Positions 29,741 through 37,484 of a DNA stretch of 64,000 nt are shown in pieces. The notes beneath the pieces were generated by a model. The model was not told the origin of the DNA. It ran no database searches and saw nothing but the letters and a program-made list of their open reading frames with translations. The number at the start of each line of letters is the position of its first letter. The first letter of the stretch is position 1. Source of the stretch: Limnochorda pilosa (GTDB lineage: Bacteria > Bacillota > Limnochordia > Limnochordales > Limnochordaceae); contig NZ_AP014924.1 of the NCBI RefSeq assembly GCF_001544015.1, forward strand, positions 806,001 through 870,000. Reading direction: 5' to 3'. A program made the translations under genes and the position numbers.

Positions 29741-31018
29741 GTGAAAGCACTGGTCGTCTTCGGCACCCGGCCGGAGGCCGTGAAGCTGGCGCCGGTCATC
29801 CAGGAGCTGGGCCGGCGCCGCGCCGCGGGAGCGCCCGCCACGGTGCGGGTGGTGGTCACGGGGCAGCACCGGGAGCTGCTGGACGCCATGCTCACCCTCT
29901 TCGGCATCCGGCCGGACCGGGACCTGGATATCATGCGCCACGGCCAGGGCCTCACCCAGGTGACCGCCCGGGTGCTGGAAGGGCTCGAGCCCGTCCTGCA
30001 GGAGGAGCGCCCCGACTGGGTGGTGGTCCAGGGCGATACCACCTCCGCCTTCGCGGCCGCGCTGGCCGCCTTCTACGCCCGGGTCCCCGTGGCCCATGTG
30101 GAGGCGGGCCTGCGCACCTCCACCCTCTGGCTCCCCTACCCGGAGGAGGCGAACCGCCGCCTCATCACGCGCCTGGCGAGCCTGCACCTGGCCGCCACCC
30201 CCAGGGCGGCGGCCAACCTGGCGCGGGAGGGGGTGGAGGCCGCCGCTGTCCGCATCACGGGGAACCCGGTGGTGGATGCCCTTCGCCAGATCGCCGCCCT
30301 CCCCCTGCGGGCGGTGCCCGACAGGGACCCGGAAGGACCGCAGGGGAACGAGGCGGCTCCGGGCGCTGGAGGGGACGACGCCCTGGCCGTGCCCGCCTGG
30401 GCCCTCGCCGCGCTGGAGTGGCTGGGCGAGCCGGGGAGCCTGGGGATCCTCCTCACCTCCCACCGGCGGGAGAACTGGGGCGAGCCCCTGGAGCGGGTCT
30501 GCCGGGCGGTGCTGGAGATCCTGCAGGCCGAGCCCCGGGCGCGGGTGCTCTTCCCCTGCCACCCCAACCCGCGGGTGCGGGCGACGGCCCAAGCCCTTCT
30601 GGGCGGGCACGAGCGGGTCCGCCTCACCGAGCCCCTGGGCTACCTTCCCTTTCTGAAGGCGATGGAGCGCGCCGTGCTGATCCTCTCCGACTCGGGCGGG
30701 GTGCAGGAGGAGGCGCCCGCCTTCGGCCGTCCCGTGCTGGTGCTTCGGGAGGAGACGGAGCGCCCCGAGGCGGTACAGGCAGGCGTGGCCCGGCTGGTGG
30801 GCACCGACGTGCGGCGGATCGTGGAGGGTGCTCGGGCGCTGCTGGTGACCGCGCGCCCGGGGGATGCCCTTCCGGGCGTCCCGGCGGATGATGGGAGCCG
30901 TGGGCGGCACGGCTTCCCCAACCCCTTCGGTGACGGCCGCGCCTCGGAGCGGATCGCCTCGGCCCTCCTGGGAGAACCCTTCGAGCCCTTCCAGCCTCCT
31001 GATCCCCCCGCCGCATAG
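29741..31018 (+). CDS. wecB: UDP-N-acetylglucosamine 2-epimerase (non-hydrolysing)
   Basis: Converts UDP-GlcNAc to UDP-ManNAc for cell-surface polysaccharide such as teichoic-acid linkage units. 425 residues against the usual 370-390. Motifs are VFGTRPEAVKLAPVI, VVQGDTTSAFAAAL, HVEAGLRT, ITGNPVVDAL, LLTSHRREN and LSDSGGVQEEAPAFGRPVL. The excess length comes from a Gly/Pro/Asp-rich insertion of about 30 residues (about 195-225, between VVDAL and the second Rossmann fold) and a loop before the C-terminus (GLY/ARG-rich, about 385-400). GTG 29741 is preceded by GGGGGGAGACAG. Divergent from corA. A strong hairpin follows in the gap to the germination operon. Confidence 0.92.
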   Translation: MKALVVFGTRPEAVKLAPVIQELGRRRAAGAPATVRVVVTGQHRELLDAMLTLFGIRPDRDLDIMRHGQGLTQVTARVLEGLEPVLQEERPDWVVVQGDTTSAFAAALAAFYARVPVAHVEAGLRTSTLWLPYPEEANRRLITRLASLHLAATPRAAANLAREGVEAAAVRITGNPVVDALRQIAALPLRAVPDRDPEGPQGNEAAPGAGGDDALAVPAWALAALEWLGEPGSLGILLTSHRRENWGEPLERVCRAVLEILQAEPRARVLFPCHPNPRVRATAQALLGGHERVRLTEPLGYLPFLKAMERAVLILSDSGGVQEEAPAFGRPVLVLREETERPEAVQAGVARLVGTDVRRIVEGARALLVTARPGDALPGVPADDGSRGRHGFPNPFGDGRASERIASALLGEPFEPFQPPDPPAA

Positions 31019-31089
31019 GTCCTGCCCCTCCAGACCACGCTAGGCGCGGGCGACGGATCCTGCCCGACCAGATCGGGCCGTCGCACCTC

Positions 31090-31109
31090 GGGGAGCCTGC
31101 GGGCTCCCC
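31090..31109 (+). terminator. hairpin between wecB and the germination operon
   Basis: GGGGAGCC (31090-31097), tetraloop TGCG, GGCTCCCC (31102-31109). It ends four bases before the AGGGGTG ribosome binding site of the next gene, so besides stopping wecB transcripts it could affect translation of that gene. Confidence 0.45.
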
Positions 31110-31126
31110 CGTCAGGGGTGGGACGG

Positions 31127-31843
31127 GTGCTGACCGAAGCCGATCGAGCCGAGATCGCGGCGGTGGTACAAGAGGCGCTGGCGGGTCGCTCCCAGGAGGT
31201 CCTGGAGGGTGGCCCGCAGGCGGCCGGCCATAGGGCCCAACCGGTGGCAGCCAGGCGCCCGGTGCGCGTGGGGCGGCCCCAGGGCGCGGCCGGCCCGGCG
31301 GCTGCCGGGCTCGGCCCCGCGGACGGCCTGGCGGAACTGGGTCGCTCCCTGGCCGAGCTCCGCCGGGAATTGAGCGAGAAGCTGGTCCAGGAGAGCCAAG
31401 AGCGGCAGCGGTTGTCGGAGCAGGTCGAACAGATCCTCCGGCGAGGCAACGGTGGCCCGAGCAACGGCGGGCCGATGGAGCTCAAGGGATTTCCTCCCGT
31501 TGCAGGGGCCACGGGCATGCCGGGTGGAGCCCAGTCCGGTGGAGGGGCCGCAGCGGGGGCCGGAGCGGGCGGGTCCCAGGCCGGGGAGCGTGGCACGGCG
31601 GAACCGCAGTGGGCCGAACCCACCCAGGGGACGGGACAGGGGCGCGCAGCCCCCTCGGGTGGGGCGGGCGGCCTCCAGGTGCAGGGGGTGGCCCAGAGGC
31701 TGGCCCAGGCCAACTTCGACCTCTCCGAGGCGCTCAACGAGAACCTGCGGAACCTGAAGGAGATCGTGGACCGCTCCCAGGAGCTCGTGGCGCGGATCGA
31801 GAACATCCTGCGCCGCCAGGCCAGAGGCCGGCAAGGGGCGTGA
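31127..31843 (+). CDS. unknown coiled-coil protein at the head of the germination operon
   Basis: Protein of 238 residues that I do not recognise. Residues about 1-20 form an acidic helix (EADRAEIAAVVQEALAG). Residues about 65-110 form a heptad-rich coiled coil (LAELGRSLAELRRELSEKLVQ onward), then a Gly/Ala/Gln-rich spacer of about 75 residues with low complexity, and a second coiled coil at the C-terminus (about 190-235; LSEALNENLRNLKEIVDRSQ). No signal peptide or membrane helix is seen. GTG 31127 lies six bases behind AGGGGTG; GTG 31118 is an alternative. It ends 3 bases before gerAB on the same strand, so it is almost certainly co-transcribed with the germination genes. A coat- or cortex-associated or scaffolding role is only a guess. 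Confidence 0.6.
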   Translation: MLTEADRAEIAAVVQEALAGRSQEVLEGGPQAAGHRAQPVAARRPVRVGRPQGAAGPAAAGLGPADGLAELGRSLAELRRELSEKLVQESQERQRLSEQVEQILRRGNGGPSNGGPMELKGFPPVAGATGMPGGAQSGGGAAAGAGAGGSQAGERGTAEPQWAEPTQGTGQGRAAPSGGAGGLQVQGVAQRLAQANFDLSEALNENLRNLKEIVDRSQELVARIENILRRQARGRQGA

Positions 31844-31846
31844 CGC

Positions 31847-32962
31847 GTGGATCTCACCCGGCCTCCTGAGGCGGGCAAGATCAGCCCCGGCCAGGTCTGC
31901 GGGCTGGTGGTCGCGGTCGTCCTCCCCACCAGCGTGCTCTACGTGCCGTCCTTGAGCGTGGTGGCCGGCCAGGCCCGGCAGGACGGGTGGCTCTCCCTGC
32001 TGCTGGCCACCGCAGCGGCCATGGTCGTGCTGGCCGCGGCCTGGCAGGTCTCCATGCGCCACCCGGGGCGGACCCTGGTGCAGATCCTGGGAATCGAGTG
32101 GGGGCCCTGGGCGGGTGGGGCGGTTGGGCTGCTCTACTTCGTGGGCATCCTGGTGCACGGTGCCCTGCTGCTGCGGGCCTTCAGCGAGGCGCTGGGCATC
32201 ACCGTCCTGCCGACGACGCCGGCGCTGGTCATCGCCGGCAGCCAGATCGCCCTCTGCGTCTACGCGGCGCGCCGGGGCGTCGAGGTCCTGGCGCGCATCG
32301 GCCAGGTGGCCACGCCCCTGCTGGTCTTCAGCCTCCTCCTGCTCTTCGGCCTGGCGTGGAGCGACTTCCGCCTCGACCGCATCCCGCCTCTCCTCACCAC
32401 CCAGTCAAGCGCCATCCTTCGGGGAGCCGTCTGGCCCCTGGCCTGGCTCCTTCAGGCGCAGATCCTGATGGAGATCGCCTTTCCCTTCGTGCAGGGCCCG
32501 CGGGGTGTGGCAAGACCGTTCTTCTCGGGGCTCGCGATGACCGGCCTGCTCCTTGTCGCCTCCCTGGTGGCGGCCCAGGCCGTCCTGGGGGTGCACATGG
32601 CCAGTCACTCGGTGGTGCTGATGCTGAAGCTGGCCCGGGAGGTCCGGCCGATCGAGTTCCTCTCGCGTACGGAGGCGCTCTACCTTGCCTTTTGGCACAT
32701 GGCGTCCTTCGTGGAGATCACGGCCTTTCTCCACGCAGGCGCCATGGTGGGGAGCGAAGTGCTGGCCCTGCGGGGAGCCCGGGTGCTGGTGGCGCCGGTG
32801 GGTCTCCTGATGACCCTGGCCGGCACCTTGCTCTTCCGCACCCTGGGGGACCTGGTGCACTTCACCGAGCAGGTGTTGCCCGTCTACGCCATCCTGCTGG
32901 GGGGCGTGATCCCGCTGATCCTGCTCGTCTTCTCCCTGCGGGCCCGCCCGGTGGGAACGTGA
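31847..32962 (+). CDS. gerAB: spore germination protein, GerAB-family permease
   Basis: B subunit of a GerA-type germinant receptor, an APC-superfamily membrane protein in the spore inner membrane that binds the small-molecule germinant. 371 residues with ten transmembrane helices by eye, beginning KISPGQVCGLVVAVVLPTSVL, as in other GerAB proteins. Family features are the LRAFSEALGITVLPTTP loop, TPLLVFSLLLLFG, ILMEIAFPFVQGP and EFLSRTEALYLAFW. GTG 31847 follows the preceding stop after three bases. The stop codon overlaps the gerAA start (GTGA). The order B-A-C differs from the A-B-C order of Bacillus gerA but is known in other spore formers. The germinant cannot be told from sequence. Confidence 0.88.
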   Translation: MDLTRPPEAGKISPGQVCGLVVAVVLPTSVLYVPSLSVVAGQARQDGWLSLLLATAAAMVVLAAAWQVSMRHPGRTLVQILGIEWGPWAGGAVGLLYFVGILVHGALLLRAFSEALGITVLPTTPALVIAGSQIALCVYAARRGVEVLARIGQVATPLLVFSLLLLFGLAWSDFRLDRIPPLLTTQSSAILRGAVWPLAWLLQAQILMEIAFPFVQGPRGVARPFFSGLAMTGLLLVASLVAAQAVLGVHMASHSVVLMLKLAREVRPIEFLSRTEALYLAFWHMASFVEITAFLHAGAMVGSEVLALRGARVLVAPVGLLMTLAGTLLFRTLGDLVHFTEQVLPVYAILLGGVIPLILLVFSLRARPVGT

Positions 32963-34830
32963 CGGGTCCGGCAAGGCAAGGGCGCCGCCCCACTGGGCCT
33001 GAACGGACGGCGCCTGGAAGCGCGGACGCGGTGGATCGCTCGCGCCAGGCTCAGGAAGCGTTCCGGGAAGCGGAGGCCCGTTCCTCCCCGAGCGAGCTGC
33101 ACCAGGCCAGCCGGTCCATGCGCGAGATCCTGGCGCGCTACGAGGCCACCCTGGGCCAGGCCGGGGGGGCGCTGGGCCGGGGGCAGCGGCTCCAGCTGCT
33201 CATGACGGGCATCGAGGAGCTTCAGGAGCTGCCCCTGGGGTTCTCCCTGGACGAGAACCTGGGGGGCCTGCGCGCGCTCTTCCGGCGGGCCTCGGACTGG
33301 GTGCTCCGCCGCTTCCGCCTGGCGGGCGGGCGCGAGGCAGCAGTCGTCTACATCGACGGCATGGTGGAGATGGCCTGGATCGATGATCACCTGGTGAAGC
33401 CCCTGATGTACGACGCCTTCCCCATGCGGACGGGAGGCGTGACGGAGTCGGTCCAGGCCCTCGTGAACCACCACGCCCTCGCCGTCTCCCAGGTGAAGGA
33501 GGCCCGCACCCTGGGGGAGGTGGCGAACGCCGTCCTCGACGGCGACACCGCCCTCCTGGTGGACGGCGAGGCGACGGCGCTGGTGGCCAGCCATCGGGGC
33601 TGGAAGCAGCGGGGCATCAGCGAGTCGACCGCGGAGGCGGTGATCCGGGGCCCGCGAGAGGCCTTCGTGGAGGTCCTCCGCACCAACACCTCCATGCTCC
33701 GCCGCCGGCTGAAGACCCCCTGCCTCAAGCTCGAGGCCCTCACCCTGGGCACCTACACCCGCACGGACGTGGTCATCGCCTACCTGGACCGGATCGCCCC
33801 CGATGCGATGGTTCAGGAGGTCCGGAGCCGGGTCCAGCGGATCCAGATCGACGGGGTGCTGGAGAGCGAGTACCTGGAGGAGCTGATCCGGGACGAGCCC
33901 TTCTCCCTCTTCCCCGTGGTGCGGTCTACCGAGCGGCCCGACGTGGTGGCCGCCGAGCTCCTGGAGGGGCGGGTGGCCATCCTCACCGCCAACACGCCGT
34001 ACGCCCTGATCGTTCCGGCGCCGTTCTGGAGCTTCTTCCAGGCGCCGGAGGACTACTACCATAACCCCTTCGTCTCAGGCGCCCTGCGCCTCCTGCGGCT
34101 GGCCTTCATGTTCTTGGCCCTCATGCTGCCTTCGCTCTACGTGGCGGTGACCACGTTCCACGCGGACATGCTGCCCACGAGCCTCCTCATCACCCTGGCA
34201 GCCGCCCGGGAGGGGGTGCCTTTCCCGGCCTTCCTGGAAGCGCTGATGATGGAGGTCATGTTCGAGGTCTTGCGAGAGGCGGGTCTGCGGCTGCCCCAGC
34301 AGGTGGGGCAGGCGGTGAGCATCGTGGGGGCGCTGGTGATCGGTCAGGCGGCGGTGAGCGCGGGGATCGTCTCCGCGCCCATGGTGATCCTGGTGGCCAT
34401 CACCGGCATCGCCTCGTTCACGACGCCCACCTACGAGATGGCGCTCGCCATTCGTTTCCTTCGCTTCCCCGTGCTGGTCCTGGGGGGCATGCTGGGCCTC
34501 TACGGCCTGGGGCTCGCGGTGCTGGCCATCCTGGTGCACCTGGCGGACCTGCGGAGCTTCGGTGTCCCCTACCTCTTCCCCCTGGCGCCCCTGCAGCCGG
34601 GGGCGTTGGCCGACGTCTTGGTCCGGCGGCCCCAGTGGAGCGACCTCTTCCGCCCCCGGATGACCGCCGGTTCCAACGTGCAGCGCGCGGCCCAGGGGAT
34701 GCGCCCGGCGCCGCCTACGGACCCCGCCGCCTTGACCGACCCGCCCCTTCCCAGCAAGCCGTCGACTGACGCCGGGGCGGGATCGCAGGAACGCGAACCG
34801 CAGGAGCAGGGCCGGGGGGGATCCGGGTGA
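32959..34830 (+). CDS. gerAA: spore germination protein, GerAA family
   Basis: A subunit of the germinant receptor, thought to form the ion channel. 623 residues: a basic, low-complexity start (about 1-75), a soluble domain (about 80-370, including AAVVYIDGMVEMAWIDDHLV, LVDGEATALVASHRGWKQRG and AVIRGPREAFVEVLRTN), then a membrane domain (about 375-535) with FMFLALMLPSLYVAVTTFH, LEALMMEVMFEVLREAGLRLP and the conserved VGQAVSIVGALVIGQAAVSAG helix. The C-terminal tail of about 70 residues is Pro/Ala-rich. GTG 32959 overlaps the gerAB stop and GTGA overlaps gerAC behind, so the three are translationally coupled. All landmark motifs of the family are intact. Confidence 0.95.
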   Translation: MTGPARQGRRPTGPERTAPGSADAVDRSRQAQEAFREAEARSSPSELHQASRSMREILARYEATLGQAGGALGRGQRLQLLMTGIEELQELPLGFSLDENLGGLRALFRRASDWVLRRFRLAGGREAAVVYIDGMVEMAWIDDHLVKPLMYDAFPMRTGGVTESVQALVNHHALAVSQVKEARTLGEVANAVLDGDTALLVDGEATALVASHRGWKQRGISESTAEAVIRGPREAFVEVLRTNTSMLRRRLKTPCLKLEALTLGTYTRTDVVIAYLDRIAPDAMVQEVRSRVQRIQIDGVLESEYLEELIRDEPFSLFPVVRSTERPDVVAAELLEGRVAILTANTPYALIVPAPFWSFFQAPEDYYHNPFVSGALRLLRLAFMFLALMLPSLYVAVTTFHADMLPTSLLITLAAAREGVPFPAFLEALMMEVMFEVLREAGLRLPQQVGQAVSIVGALVIGQAAVSAGIVSAPMVILVAITGIASFTTPTYEMALAIRFLRFPVLVLGGMLGLYGLGLAVLAILVHLADLRSFGVPYLFPLAPLQPGALADVLVRRPQWSDLFRPRMTAGSNVQRAAQGMRPAPPTDPAALTDPPLPSKPSTDAGAGSQEREPQEQGRGGSG

Positions 34831-36134
34831 GGCGGCTGCTACCCTTCGTGCTGGTGGCCCTCCTGGCCGGGGGCTGTTGGGACCGCCTGGAGGTGAACGA
34901 CCTTGCCCTGGCCACCGGGATGGCGGTGGACGTGGGCGACGCACTCCCTTACCGGTTGAGCATCCAGGTGATCCTGCCCAGGCAGGTAGGGGGACCCGCC
35001 GGGTCCGGAATGGGCGGGGGCGGGGGTGGCGGGCTGGCGGAGGGGCAGACGGTGGCCCTCTTCAGCAAGGAGGGCCGCTCCCTCACCGAAGCCCTGGCCA
35101 GCCTGCAGCAGGAGCTCTCACGGCGGATCCGCCTCGGCCACACCGGCTTCATCGTGCTGGGTGAGAAGCTCGCCAGGCGCGGCATCGCCGACGTGATCGG
35201 CCTCTTCGCCACCAACCGCGACGTGCGCCTGCGCACCCCTGTCCTGGTGACGGAAGGGGAGGGCCTGGCGGTCCTTCGGGCCCAACCGGCGCTGGAATCG
35301 GTTCCCGGGGTGGTGGTGGAGGAGCTGCAGGACTTCGGCCTGCTGCCCAGGGCGACGGTGGGCACCCTCGCGGACCAGCTCGGGCGGGAAGGGGTGGAGC
35401 CGATCACGGCCCGGCTGGCGGCCGTGCCCGCCCTCAGGCCGTCCGCCACCGAGGGTGGCGGTGGGGGAGGGGGCGGCGGAGGAGGCCCCTCGCCCATTCG
35501 GCAGGAACTGCGCCTGACGGGGGCCGCCCTGTTCAAGGGCGACCGGTTGGTGGGATTCGTGGGGCCCCAGGAGGCCCGGGCCATCCTCTGGGTGAAGAAC
35601 CAGATCAGGGAGGCGAACATCACCGCCTTCCCGCCCGAGGGGGGCGCGGTGACGGCCCGGGTGATCCGGGCGGTGACCAAGCTCGACGTGCGGATGACGC
35701 CGGCGGGTCCCGAGGCCGTGCTGAAGGTGAGGGGCATCGACGACGTCGCGGAGAACAGCGCCCGGCTGGACCTGACGGACACGGTGGTGGTGCGGCGGGT
35801 GGAGAGCCTCCTGGAGCGCACCTTGGCGGCCCGCATCCGGCGAGGCGTCGAGGCCGCCCAGAGGCTGAACGCGGACGTGCTGGGTTTCGGCTTCGCCCTC
35901 TACAAGAGCGACCCCGAGGGCTGGCGGGAGCGGTGGTCGAAGGAGTGGGACCAGCTCTTCCCCCAGGTGCGGTTCCGGCCTCAGGTGGACCTGGAGGTGC
36001 GCCGCATCGGGCTGGTGCCTGAGCCCGTGAACGAGCCCGAGGTGCCCTTCAGGCACTACCCGGCCGGCGAGCCGGGCCAGGTTCCCGAGGGGGCTTCGGA
36101 CCTGCCGCCGGGCGGGGGGCCGCCCCGTGATTAG
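34827..36134 (+). CDS. gerAC: spore germination lipoprotein, Ger(x)C family
   Basis: C subunit of the germinant receptor, a lipoprotein on the outer face of the spore inner membrane. 435 residues. The lipobox is LAGGC with Cys17, followed by WDRLEVNDLALATGMAVD, the standard opening of Ger(x)C proteins. SRRIRLGHTGFIVLGEKLA, VRLRTPVLVTEG and the C-terminal QRLNADVLGFGFALYKSDP with W and RFRPQVDLEVRRIGL match the three-domain family pattern. Two insertions are unusual: a run of seven glycines (about residues 62-68) and one of eleven (about 210-220). GTG 34827 overlaps the gerAA stop. Its own end overlaps the start of the small downstream gene by eight bases. Confidence 0.93.
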   Translation: MRRLLPFVLVALLAGGCWDRLEVNDLALATGMAVDVGDALPYRLSIQVILPRQVGGPAGSGMGGGGGGGLAEGQTVALFSKEGRSLTEALASLQQELSRRIRLGHTGFIVLGEKLARRGIADVIGLFATNRDVRLRTPVLVTEGEGLAVLRAQPALESVPGVVVEELQDFGLLPRATVGTLADQLGREGVEPITARLAAVPALRPSATEGGGGGGGGGGGPSPIRQELRLTGAALFKGDRLVGFVGPQEARAILWVKNQIREANITAFPPEGGAVTARVIRAVTKLDVRMTPAGPEAVLKVRGIDDVAENSARLDLTDTVVVRRVESLLERTLAARIRRGVEAAQRLNADVLGFGFALYKSDPEGWRERWSKEWDQLFPQVRFRPQVDLEVRRIGLVPEPVNEPEVPFRHYPAGEPGQVPEGASDLPPGGGPPRD

Positions 36135-36354
36135 CGCCGCGCTCTTCACGCTGGGCGTAGCGGTCTACGCGTACTGGGAGGGGGCCCCCCTCTGGCGGAA
36201 CGGGTACCAGCGGGAGGCCGTGGCCGGCTGGGCCCTCTGGTTCGTGGGCCTGGTTCTGGGGAACCTTCTCATCCTCCTGGACCCACCGCCCGACCTGGCC
36301 CCTTTCCTGGACCGGATCTTTGATCCTGTGGGACGGCTGCTGACCGGGGGGTAG
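36127..36354 (+). CDS. 75-residue two-helix membrane protein, germinant-receptor D-protein-like
   Basis: A small protein with two predicted transmembrane helices (about residues 2-17 and 31-51) joined by a short charged loop (EGAPLWRNGYQREA) and a Pro-rich C-terminus. It starts with GTG inside the last codons of gerAC, an 8-base overlap that couples it to the receptor. Several Bacillus receptor operons carry a D gene for a protein of about 75 residues with two transmembrane segments, which changes germination rate when lost; size, topology and position agree well here. Sequence homology itself I cannot test. The alternative is an unrelated small membrane protein. Confidence 0.6.
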   Translation: MISAALFTLGVAVYAYWEGAPLWRNGYQREAVAGWALWFVGLVLGNLLILLDPPPDLAPFLDRIFDPVGRLLTGG

Positions 36355-36498
36355 CCTCGGGCTCGCCCTGGCGCAGCTCCCGGAAGGAAGTGCCGGGCGC
36401 AGGGAGGAAGATAGGGTGCCGGGCGGGGAGAGCGGCGGGCCCCTGGGCCATCCCGGGCCGACGCGCTCTCGAGGTCGGGCTCCCCGGGAGGTTGACGG

Positions 36499-37484
36499 AT
36501 GAGCTGGTTGGGGTGGATCGTGAGCCTGCTGGCGACGGCGGTCCTGGTTCGAAGCCTGGTGGAGCCCCGCTGGCCCCGGGTGGAGCGCCGGCGCCTGGAC
36601 GGGGGCGGGCGCCCGGGGCGACCGATGCGGCCGCGGCCGGCACGGGGCGCACCCCTGCCGATCCGGGGCCCACCCTGCGCATCCTTCACCTGTCGGACCT
36701 CCACCTGAGGGGCCTCGGGGGTCGGGAGCGGCGCGTGCTCCGGTCCGCCGCCCGCCTGGCTCCGGACCTGATCTGCCTCACCGGCGACCTTGCCGAAGGC
36801 GCCCGGGGCCACGAGGCCCTGCGTGCCTGGGCGGCTCAGATCGCCAGCGTGGCCCCCACCTTCGCGGTGCTGGGCGACCACGACTTCCTGCTCCAGCCGG
36901 CCGACCGGGCACGCCTGGAGGCCGCCCTCCGCCGGGCGGGGGTGCACCTGTTGCGCAACCGCTCGTCGTGGGTGAGCGGACCCGGGTGGCGGGTCTGGGT
37001 GGTGGGGGTGGACGATGCCCGGAAGGGTGTGGCGGACCTGGCCCGGGCCATGAGGGGCGACGCCGCCCGGGCCGCCCAGAACGGGGTTCCGCACCAGGGA
37101 AGCGAGGTGCGCCTGCTTCTCTCCCACTGGCCCGGCACGGCGCCGGAGGCGGCGGAGAAGGGCTTCCACCTGGTGCTGGCGGGCGACACCCACGGCGGCC
37201 AGGTGAACCTGCCGTGGTTGGGCCCCGTGTGGGCGTGGATGAAGGAGCGCTCTCCCTACCTGGACGGGGTCTACCACCTGGGAGGAACCTGGCTCCACGT
37301 CAGCCGGGGGCTGGGCTGGAGCCATCTCCCGGTGCGCTTCCGCTGCCGCCCCCAGGTGGCCCTGCTGGAGCTGCCGCTTGGGCCGGTTCCGGTTGCGGAG
37401 CACCCGCCGGAGACCGCCGTGGAACCCCTGGCGGGGCCGGCGGTGGCGGGAGAGCCCTTGGCAGCCAGGACCAGAAGGGCATAG
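36499..37484 (+). CDS. metallophosphoesterase with membrane anchor, apparently frameshifted
   Basis: Calcineurin-like phosphoesterase related to YkuE/LpxH2-type enzymes. The ATG at 36499 behind GGGAGG opens a frame with the usual membrane anchor and linker (MSWLGWIVSLLATAVLVRSL then EPRWPRVERRRL). The catalytic domain follows in another frame: LRILHLSDLHL (metal ligands), LTGDLAEG, VLGDHDF (normally GNHD), LLLSHWP, LAGDTHGGQVNLP and a normal C-terminus to 37484. The switch must lie in the G-rich stretch about 36590-36620 and needs one added base or a -1 slip. The catalytic frame has no proper start of its own. It could be a sequencing error, a recent mutation or programmed frameshifting. It follows the germination operon by 144 bases. 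Confidence 0.7.

Follow-up and report, generated by a model that had tools for sequence, protein, structure and literature searches.

GerA-type germinant receptors comprise A, B and C subunits and sometimes a D subunit (PMC11841064), described for some receptors as small (PMC13170314), and current models place the N-terminal domains of the A subunit on the inner surface (PMC13170314). GerD, the germinosome scaffold of Bacillus, is described as an outer-surface lipoprotein that forms an alpha-helical trimer and is made concurrently with the receptors (PMC11841064). The polar hub PopZ of Caulobacter is described as binding clients through an N-terminal helical region and oligomerizing through a C-terminal region, with a disordered linker in which acidic residues and proline are abundant (PMC9512792). 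Here, we analyzed a stretch of 64,000 nucleotides from Limnochorda pilosa (contig NZ_AP014924.1, positions 806,001 to 870,000 of the forward strand; hereafter the window), in which a gene for a soluble coiled-coil protein heads a germinant receptor (ger) operon. L. pilosa is reportedly a spore-former, as the title of a 2016 paper by Watanabe et al. calls it. The coiled-coil gene is best read as belonging to an undescribed protein family tied to germinant receptors in Limnochordales, and its place inside their gene clusters makes the product a plausible candidate helper of those receptors.

The locus combines a GerA-type operon with an extra gene of an undescribed family. Contiguous genes for the A, B and C subunits mark it as a receptor operon (PF03323, PF03845, PF05504 and PF25198; Table 1), and on these Pfam matches the assignments of gerAB, gerAA and gerAC are secure beyond doubt. 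The coiled-coil frame is open throughout (31118 or 31127 to 31843), and GTG at 31127 is preferred as start codon because AGGGG precedes it and the position of the motif in homologues fits. As a preliminary description of the sequence had stated, exactly 3 bases separate this gene from gerAB (31843/31847), and overlaps of 4, 4 and 8 bases follow down to a D-like gene (gerAB/gerAA, GTGA at 32959-32962; gerAA/gerAC, 34827-34830; gerAC/D-like, 36127-36134). A separate terminator and promoter before gerAB, which would have spoken against a common operon, are absent, since 3 bases leave no room for them; a scan of 30900-36500 yielded no sigma-70 promoter, and its sole terminator-like site (34437) lies within gerAA. 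On the other side, a UDP-GlcNAc 2-epimerase gene (PF02350) sits 108 bases 5' of the coiled-coil gene.

The encoded protein contains no cysteine, hence no lipobox, and no membrane-spanning stretch (best 19-residue Kyte-Doolittle mean 0.62), in line with the earlier claim that it has neither a signal nor a membrane helix. AlphaFold2, given a two-row alignment, predicted the three helices listed in Table 1 with disordered links between them (pLDDT near 75 for the first helix, and 80 to 91 for the central parts of the two long ones). Heptad patterning in the middle and C-terminal helices was equaled by 53 and 3 of 5000 shuffles, respectively, whereas the pattern of the N-terminal helix was not beyond shuffles (3042 of 5000 as good), and this helix is therefore treated as a third element that is not clearly a coil. 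The two coils and the Gly/Ala-rich spacer of the preliminary description (74% G/A/P/Q/S over residues 108-181) were thus recovered, but the conserved N-terminal helix had been overlooked. Searches of Pfam, NCBIfam, PHROGs and the sequences of solved structures returned nothing better than weak matches, which fell well short of the cut-offs and were located mainly in coil-like or low-complexity parts, and nothing came near the curated cut-offs of known receptor subunit families. At E <=1, the Pfam scan gave HAUS6_N and DUF4404 alone, with neither the GerD profile (PF17898) nor PopZ, for which Pfam presumably contains a family. These searches agree with the view that the protein is not a known part of GerA-type operons. 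In the literature on germination and this class (mainly open access; titles and abstract openings), no coiled-coil gene in a ger operon of the class was apparent.

How does this protein compare with the described systems? Like GerD it is helical, and self-association and forespore production would be further points of likeness, but it lacks the cysteine, the signal and the profile match. The GerD profile also found nothing at E 0.1 in any of 14 genomes of the order, with or without the coiled-coil gene, while among 14 control genomes it matched four, B. subtilis among these and one over the cut-off. A protein other than GerD, as first proposed, is what these results describe. D subunits of GerA-type receptors are small membrane proteins; the coiled-coil gene resembles theirs in being a small extra gene in a ger operon, but its product is soluble, with 238 amino acids, and the operon has a D-like gene of its own, whose 75-residue product matched no family above cut-off in a Pfam scan. 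With PopZ, the low-confidence model shares the order of N-terminal helix, disordered linker and C-terminal helical region; the differences are a Gly/Ala-rich spacer, an extra middle coil, the missing Pfam match and a host from another phylum. For the C-terminal helix itself, the heptad pattern is only suggestive of self-oligomerization.

Within the class, a search with the single protein over 60 genomes, its own (G000) included, returned the orthologue in a congeneric genome, G001 (3e-34), and, as the best match outside the genus, a place just upstream of gerAB in G012 (0.001). Reading of ger loci added tandem small genes before gerAB in G006 and G012, and a six-member profile run on 29 fetched loci added two members directly after gerAC, in G003 (1.9e-9) and G009 (3.4e-9), both overlapping gerAC by 4 bases. 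The resulting profile (A2; eight genes of six genomes) was searched over 72 class genomes, 68 of which have GerA, and gave clear matches (<=1e-8) in six, a weak match in G015 (3.9e-5) and five at 0.01 to 0.09; of these five, the regions of G032 and G004 were read, and neither contained anything that passed the inclusion threshold. The family is defined by having the N-terminal motif together with the C-terminal module, and both occurred in eight genes of six genomes, which are the profile's own members. All eight intact copies lie in ger loci, six directly adjoining a ger gene and two being the outer copies of tandem pairs. With CC denoting the coiled-coil gene, the arrangements are (i) CC-AB-AA-AC-D in the window and G001, (ii) CC1-CC2-AB convergent with AA-AC-D in G006 and G012, and (iii) AA-AC-CC divergent from AB in G003 and G009. 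The immediate non-ger neighbors differ as well: an epimerase gene in G000 and G001, a PAP2-like gene in G006 and a methyltransferase-like gene in G012 (the latter two assigned by eye).

These arrangements bear on the idea that the protein serves assembly or stability and is produced immediately ahead of GerAB, for example to hold the nascent permease or a receptor subcomplex, without being part of a mature cluster. The copy directly before gerAB in G000, G001, G006 and G012 (3, 3 and 0 bases, or a 4-base overlap) would suit such a role, but in G003 and G009 the copy follows gerAC and gerAB lies on the other strand, and other gerAB genes of the same genomes have no such gene; we consider this explanation improbable. 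For the same reason, the expectation that homologues always precede gerAB did not hold, and in the order the gene is carried by 6 of the 26 ger loci that were read (the window and 25 loci retrieved by their gerAB matches, loci with gerAA alone lying outside the sample).

In a GerAA tree of 26 rows, eight of them labeled as linked to the gene (with L105 and L118, both uncertain, counted in), four changes of the label are required, and in a GerAB tree of 27 rows five are. The trees exclude proteins of <=250 residues, any match with E above 1e-20 and two loci, L083 and L086 (the latter overlapping L074). In the GerAA tree, the G003/G009 pair stands apart from the group of the window, G001, G006 and G012 (support 95/97), and the linked loci still form two separate groups when L105 and L118, in the latter of which linkage seems secondary, are set aside; the gene therefore occurs with at least two receptor lineages. 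Called gene starts are unreliable in general, and the GerAA of L058 was over-extended by the gene caller.

Several further observations were made at these loci. In the tandem pairs of G006 and G012 (L061 3290-3999 and L062 6270-7241), the second copies carry an AQWW motif, and WW is also present in the spacer of the G003/G009 proteins. G006 holds in addition a decayed ger locus (L104 8283-9070; G006:C1 about 1526282-1527069, minus strand), in which both gerAC and the coiled-coil gene are broken: the latter is frameshifted, split over two frames, and follows gerAC fragments (34 residues at 76% identity, then 14 residues). This broken copy resembles the G003/G009 type most closely. Two genera of family f6 have, beside gerAA and oriented divergently from it, a conserved coiled-coil gene with a basic linker (L105 4399-4962; L158 21-533); its similarity to the C-terminal module was too weak for inclusion in the family (L105, 3.9e-5 with A2 and 0.006 with A3, the module profile described below; L158, 0.01).

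Sequence comparison shows that both ends of the protein are under constraint. The G001 orthologue, at the same place, is 54% identical by alignment (45% by BLAST), with 16 of the 18 N-terminal motif residues identical, the C-terminal module nearly unchanged and the spacer diverged. Between G003 and G009, the first 30 codons differ by 0 nonsynonymous and 3 synonymous changes and the last 59 by 1 and 3, respectively, against 20 and 9 in the spacer and middle. Given the orthologue and the constrained ends, the gene is not a chance open reading frame, and translation into a protein constrained at both its ends is very probable. If the gene were a fast-evolving passenger that contributes little to germination and persists by chance or for some other reason, this would account for the nearly unconstrained spacer and for the patchy presence (6 of 72 class genomes). 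Such an explanation fits poorly with the near absence of nonsynonymous changes at both ends, few as the changes are in all, and with the orthologue in G001, the tandem copies of G006 and G012 that are all open, and the retained linkage, and we rank it as slightly less probable again than the assembly factor.

Expression in the forespore together with the receptor had been anticipated, and a sigma-G-like site lies upstream of the gene, overlapping the epimerase stop codon (Table 1). It was scored against the sigma-G consensus of B. subtilis (GHATR, CATNHTA). The G001 orthologue (L076 2833) has GCATA-N18-CACCCTA at the same place and with the same spacing, likewise at 11 of 12 positions, and sites of this quality (>=11 of 12 positions, spacer 17 or 18, terminal TA) numbered three, the window site included, in 193,120 strand-bases of own-genome sequence examined. 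The -35 box partly reflects an Ala-stop end that the two epimerase genes share. Among four own-genome matches to small acid-soluble spore proteins (SASP), the strongest is preceded by GCATG-N19-CATACTA (12 of 12, its spacer of 19 lying outside the counted range), and the three weaker ones have no sigma-G-like site. The 108-base leader that separates the epimerase stop from the start codon (31019-31126) has a strong predicted RNA fold (z -3.5) with hairpins and no T run, and it may be the terminator region of the epimerase gene.

The explanation that we tentatively favor, at somewhat less than an even chance, is that the coiled-coil gene encodes a core-side hub or stabilizer of GerA-type receptors in Limnochordales. 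The product would be a soluble forespore protein working with the receptors, whose C-terminal module self-associates, whose low-complexity spacer holds the two ends apart, and whose conserved N-terminal helix is the client-binding part, the client most likely being a core-side receptor part such as the N-terminal hydrophilic region of GerAA. Receptors would thereby be gathered or stabilized from the core face, as PopZ gathers clients in Caulobacter. This reading is preferred because the order of parts resembles PopZ and because a soluble protein with no signal would meet the inner receptor face, that is, the GerAA N-terminal domain. The points counted in its support are the ger linkage of all eight intact copies in three arrangements and two GerAA groups with differing non-ger neighbors, the broken copy beside gerAC fragments, the sigma-G-like site, the constrained ends with a loose spacer, the helix-disorder-helix model and the lack of a GerD match in 14 genomes. 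Forespore expression, self-association, client binding and an effect on germination are what we infer from these points. Such a protein would be a soluble core-side candidate for receptor gathering in spores with no GerD detected among the 14 genomes searched; it is concrete, should be easily expressed, and gives a reason to examine the inner face of the receptors. By eye, an N-terminal extension of GerAA before PF03323 (32959-33250 in the window) looks common to the window, L060 (another ger locus of the same genome), G001, G006, G012, G015 and G020, and it is possibly a docking part. That the extension tracks the coiled-coil gene was rejected, because L060, which has no such gene, also has it: the frame upstream of the called start there continues the extension (by eye).

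Beyond the class, profile A2, built from class members alone, matched G225 (3e-13) and six more outside genomes (7e-8 to 2.5e-4) in a search over 398 phylum genomes. A profile of the C-terminal module (A3), which includes six rows from outside the class, matched 26 genomes at <=0.01, 12 of these at <=1e-9. Comparison of class and non-class module profiles gave 97.3% and 2e-11 over 44 columns, against 90.4% and 1.4e-6 over 26 columns for a control set of DegS-like coils, which the profile itself had picked up, compared with the class (65.5% and 5.8e-5 with the non-class profile). Because this control scores so well, remote kinship is probable, not proven: the C-terminal module probably has homologues in other Bacillota, and coil convergence limits the claim. 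Of 13 genomes with A3 matches between 5e-5 and 0.01, G015 was considered separately and five were inspected, whose matches were treated as coil coincidences; four of these lay in proteins of 384-416 amino acids directly before a response-regulator gene (DegS-like, by eye) and one in a 367-residue protein. The coils of DegS-like kinases (L153, L154, L155, L157) look like the module's second half, which calls for caution in profile searches of this kind. For the N-terminal motif outside the class, 1, 1, 0 and 2 of 200 shuffles were as good in L115, L116, L150 and L151, respectively, L118 and L183 had no match, and the other seven proteins were within shuffles (12 to 65 of 200); since most fell within shuffles and the motif is not securely shared, we do not claim it as common to class and non-class proteins.

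The neighbors of the non-class module genes, called by Pfam for L116, L117 and L121 and otherwise by eye, include a PDZ/Lon (YlbL-like) gene in families f99 and f147, with an amidohydrolase gene in f99; octopine-dehydrogenase and B12-binding genes in f24, and an octopine-dehydrogenase/B12 locus also in f91; and a Mur ligase gene in f34. The f24 match lies in a long reading frame with uncertain gene limits. Lineages of the strong matches include what we take to be Symbiobacterium thermophilum (G407), Thermaerobacter marianensis (G125) and Sulfobacillus acidophilus (G387). In the order of G407, six of eight genomes carry the module. In G407, G456 and G457 the module gene is separated from a cinA-like gene by a ger operon; the module gene is beside the cinA-like gene in G454 and G458 and beside an FtsH-like gene, without cinA, in G460, and no ger gene was found in the 12.5-13 kb read around the module gene in these last three (cinA-like genes assigned by eye, the FtsH-like gene from Pfam matches in L185 and L187). 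In the Symbiobacterium-like genus g274, comparison of L118, L183 and L184 with L185, L186 and L187 shows the ger operon apparently inserted between the cinA-like gene and the module gene.

This wider distribution would also fit a general organizer of the forespore or spore core in deep-branching Bacillota, which Limnochordales carry in ger operons for forespore expression and whose clients need not be receptors. Such a role would suit the presence of just one module match each in 11 of the 12 genomes with strong matches (G006 has three), the differing module loci (PDZ/Lon, octopine-dehydrogenase/B12, Mur ligase, and FtsH-like in Symbiobacteriales-like genomes) and the long Q/S/G-rich stretches in several open frames. 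Set against it are the Limnochordales copies that accompany ger genes in three different arrangements, and a remote homology that rests on a 44-column coil, with the DegS-like control at 1.4e-6 and uncertain boundaries of the f24 gene. We regard the general organizer as rather unlikely and favor the core-side receptor hub over it. If the ger link were nevertheless secondary, the family would still mark an unnamed coiled-coil module that is probably common to deep-branching spore formers. The broadest form of the hub reading, in which a PopZ-like hub organizes the receptors of Limnochordales from the core side and belongs to an undescribed family present also in Symbiobacterium-, Thermaerobacter- and Sulfobacillus-like lineages, a germinosome from inside, appears unlikely.

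Several results weigh against the core-side receptor hub: (i) 20 of the 26 ger loci read in the order have no such gene, among them L060, which resembles the G006/G012 loci and belongs to the window's own genome, which has four GerA matches; (ii) in 8 of the 12 genomes with strong A3 matches (G249, G079, G163, G125, G387, G225, G427, G089), the module gene is not ger-linked, the linked ones being G000, G003, G006 and G407, and in those that have gerAA and the module gene on one contig (G249, G079, G163, G125, G387) the two are at least 260 kb apart; (iii) the ger adjacency in Symbiobacteriales-like genomes looks, from gene order, like a later insertion beside the module gene; (iv) the mean confidence of the structural model is low (pLDDT 59.7); (v) no sigma-G-like site above threshold was found before the CC genes of G006 and G012 or before gerAA or gerAB of G003; and (vi) none of 48 GerAA proteins was found to be fused to the module. 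A weak module match in the GerAA of L170 (2e-4) was set aside as a fusion because it is mostly an Ala/Pro/Ser-rich stretch. Because of (v), the promoter evidence is limited to the window's genus, where the anticipated forespore production is supported by the sites in the window and G001, but it does not extend to the CC genes of G006 and G012. Likewise, homologues lying mostly away from ger operons had been named as evidence against a receptor role, and the outcome is divided between the class, with all eight copies in ger loci, and the strong matches beyond it in point (ii). Co-occurrence of the module with GerA (12 of 12) was dropped as support, being uninformative where GerA occurs in 89 of 101 sampled phylum genomes.

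Table 1. Features of the coiled-coil gene and ger operon, in window coordinates
Feature	Position	Strand	Remarks
Sigma-G-like promoter GCATA-N18-CACGCTA	31013..31042	+	11/12 consensus positions
Coiled-coil gene (238 aa)	31127..31843	+	N-terminal helix 4-27, middle helix 64-107, spacer 108-181, C-terminal module 182-237
C-terminal module coding region used in profile A3	31670..31819	+	
gerAB	31847..32962	+	PF03845 Spore_permease, E 3e-40
gerAA	32959..34830	+	PF03323 GerA, E 2e-182; GTG start at 32959 overlaps gerAB stop
gerAC	34827..36134	+	PF25198/PF05504
D-subunit-like small protein, 75 aa	36127..36354	+	assigned as D-like only from size and place

Among 25 ger loci of the order (L058-L082), 14 encode a D-like protein of about 75 residues next to gerAC (counted by eye).
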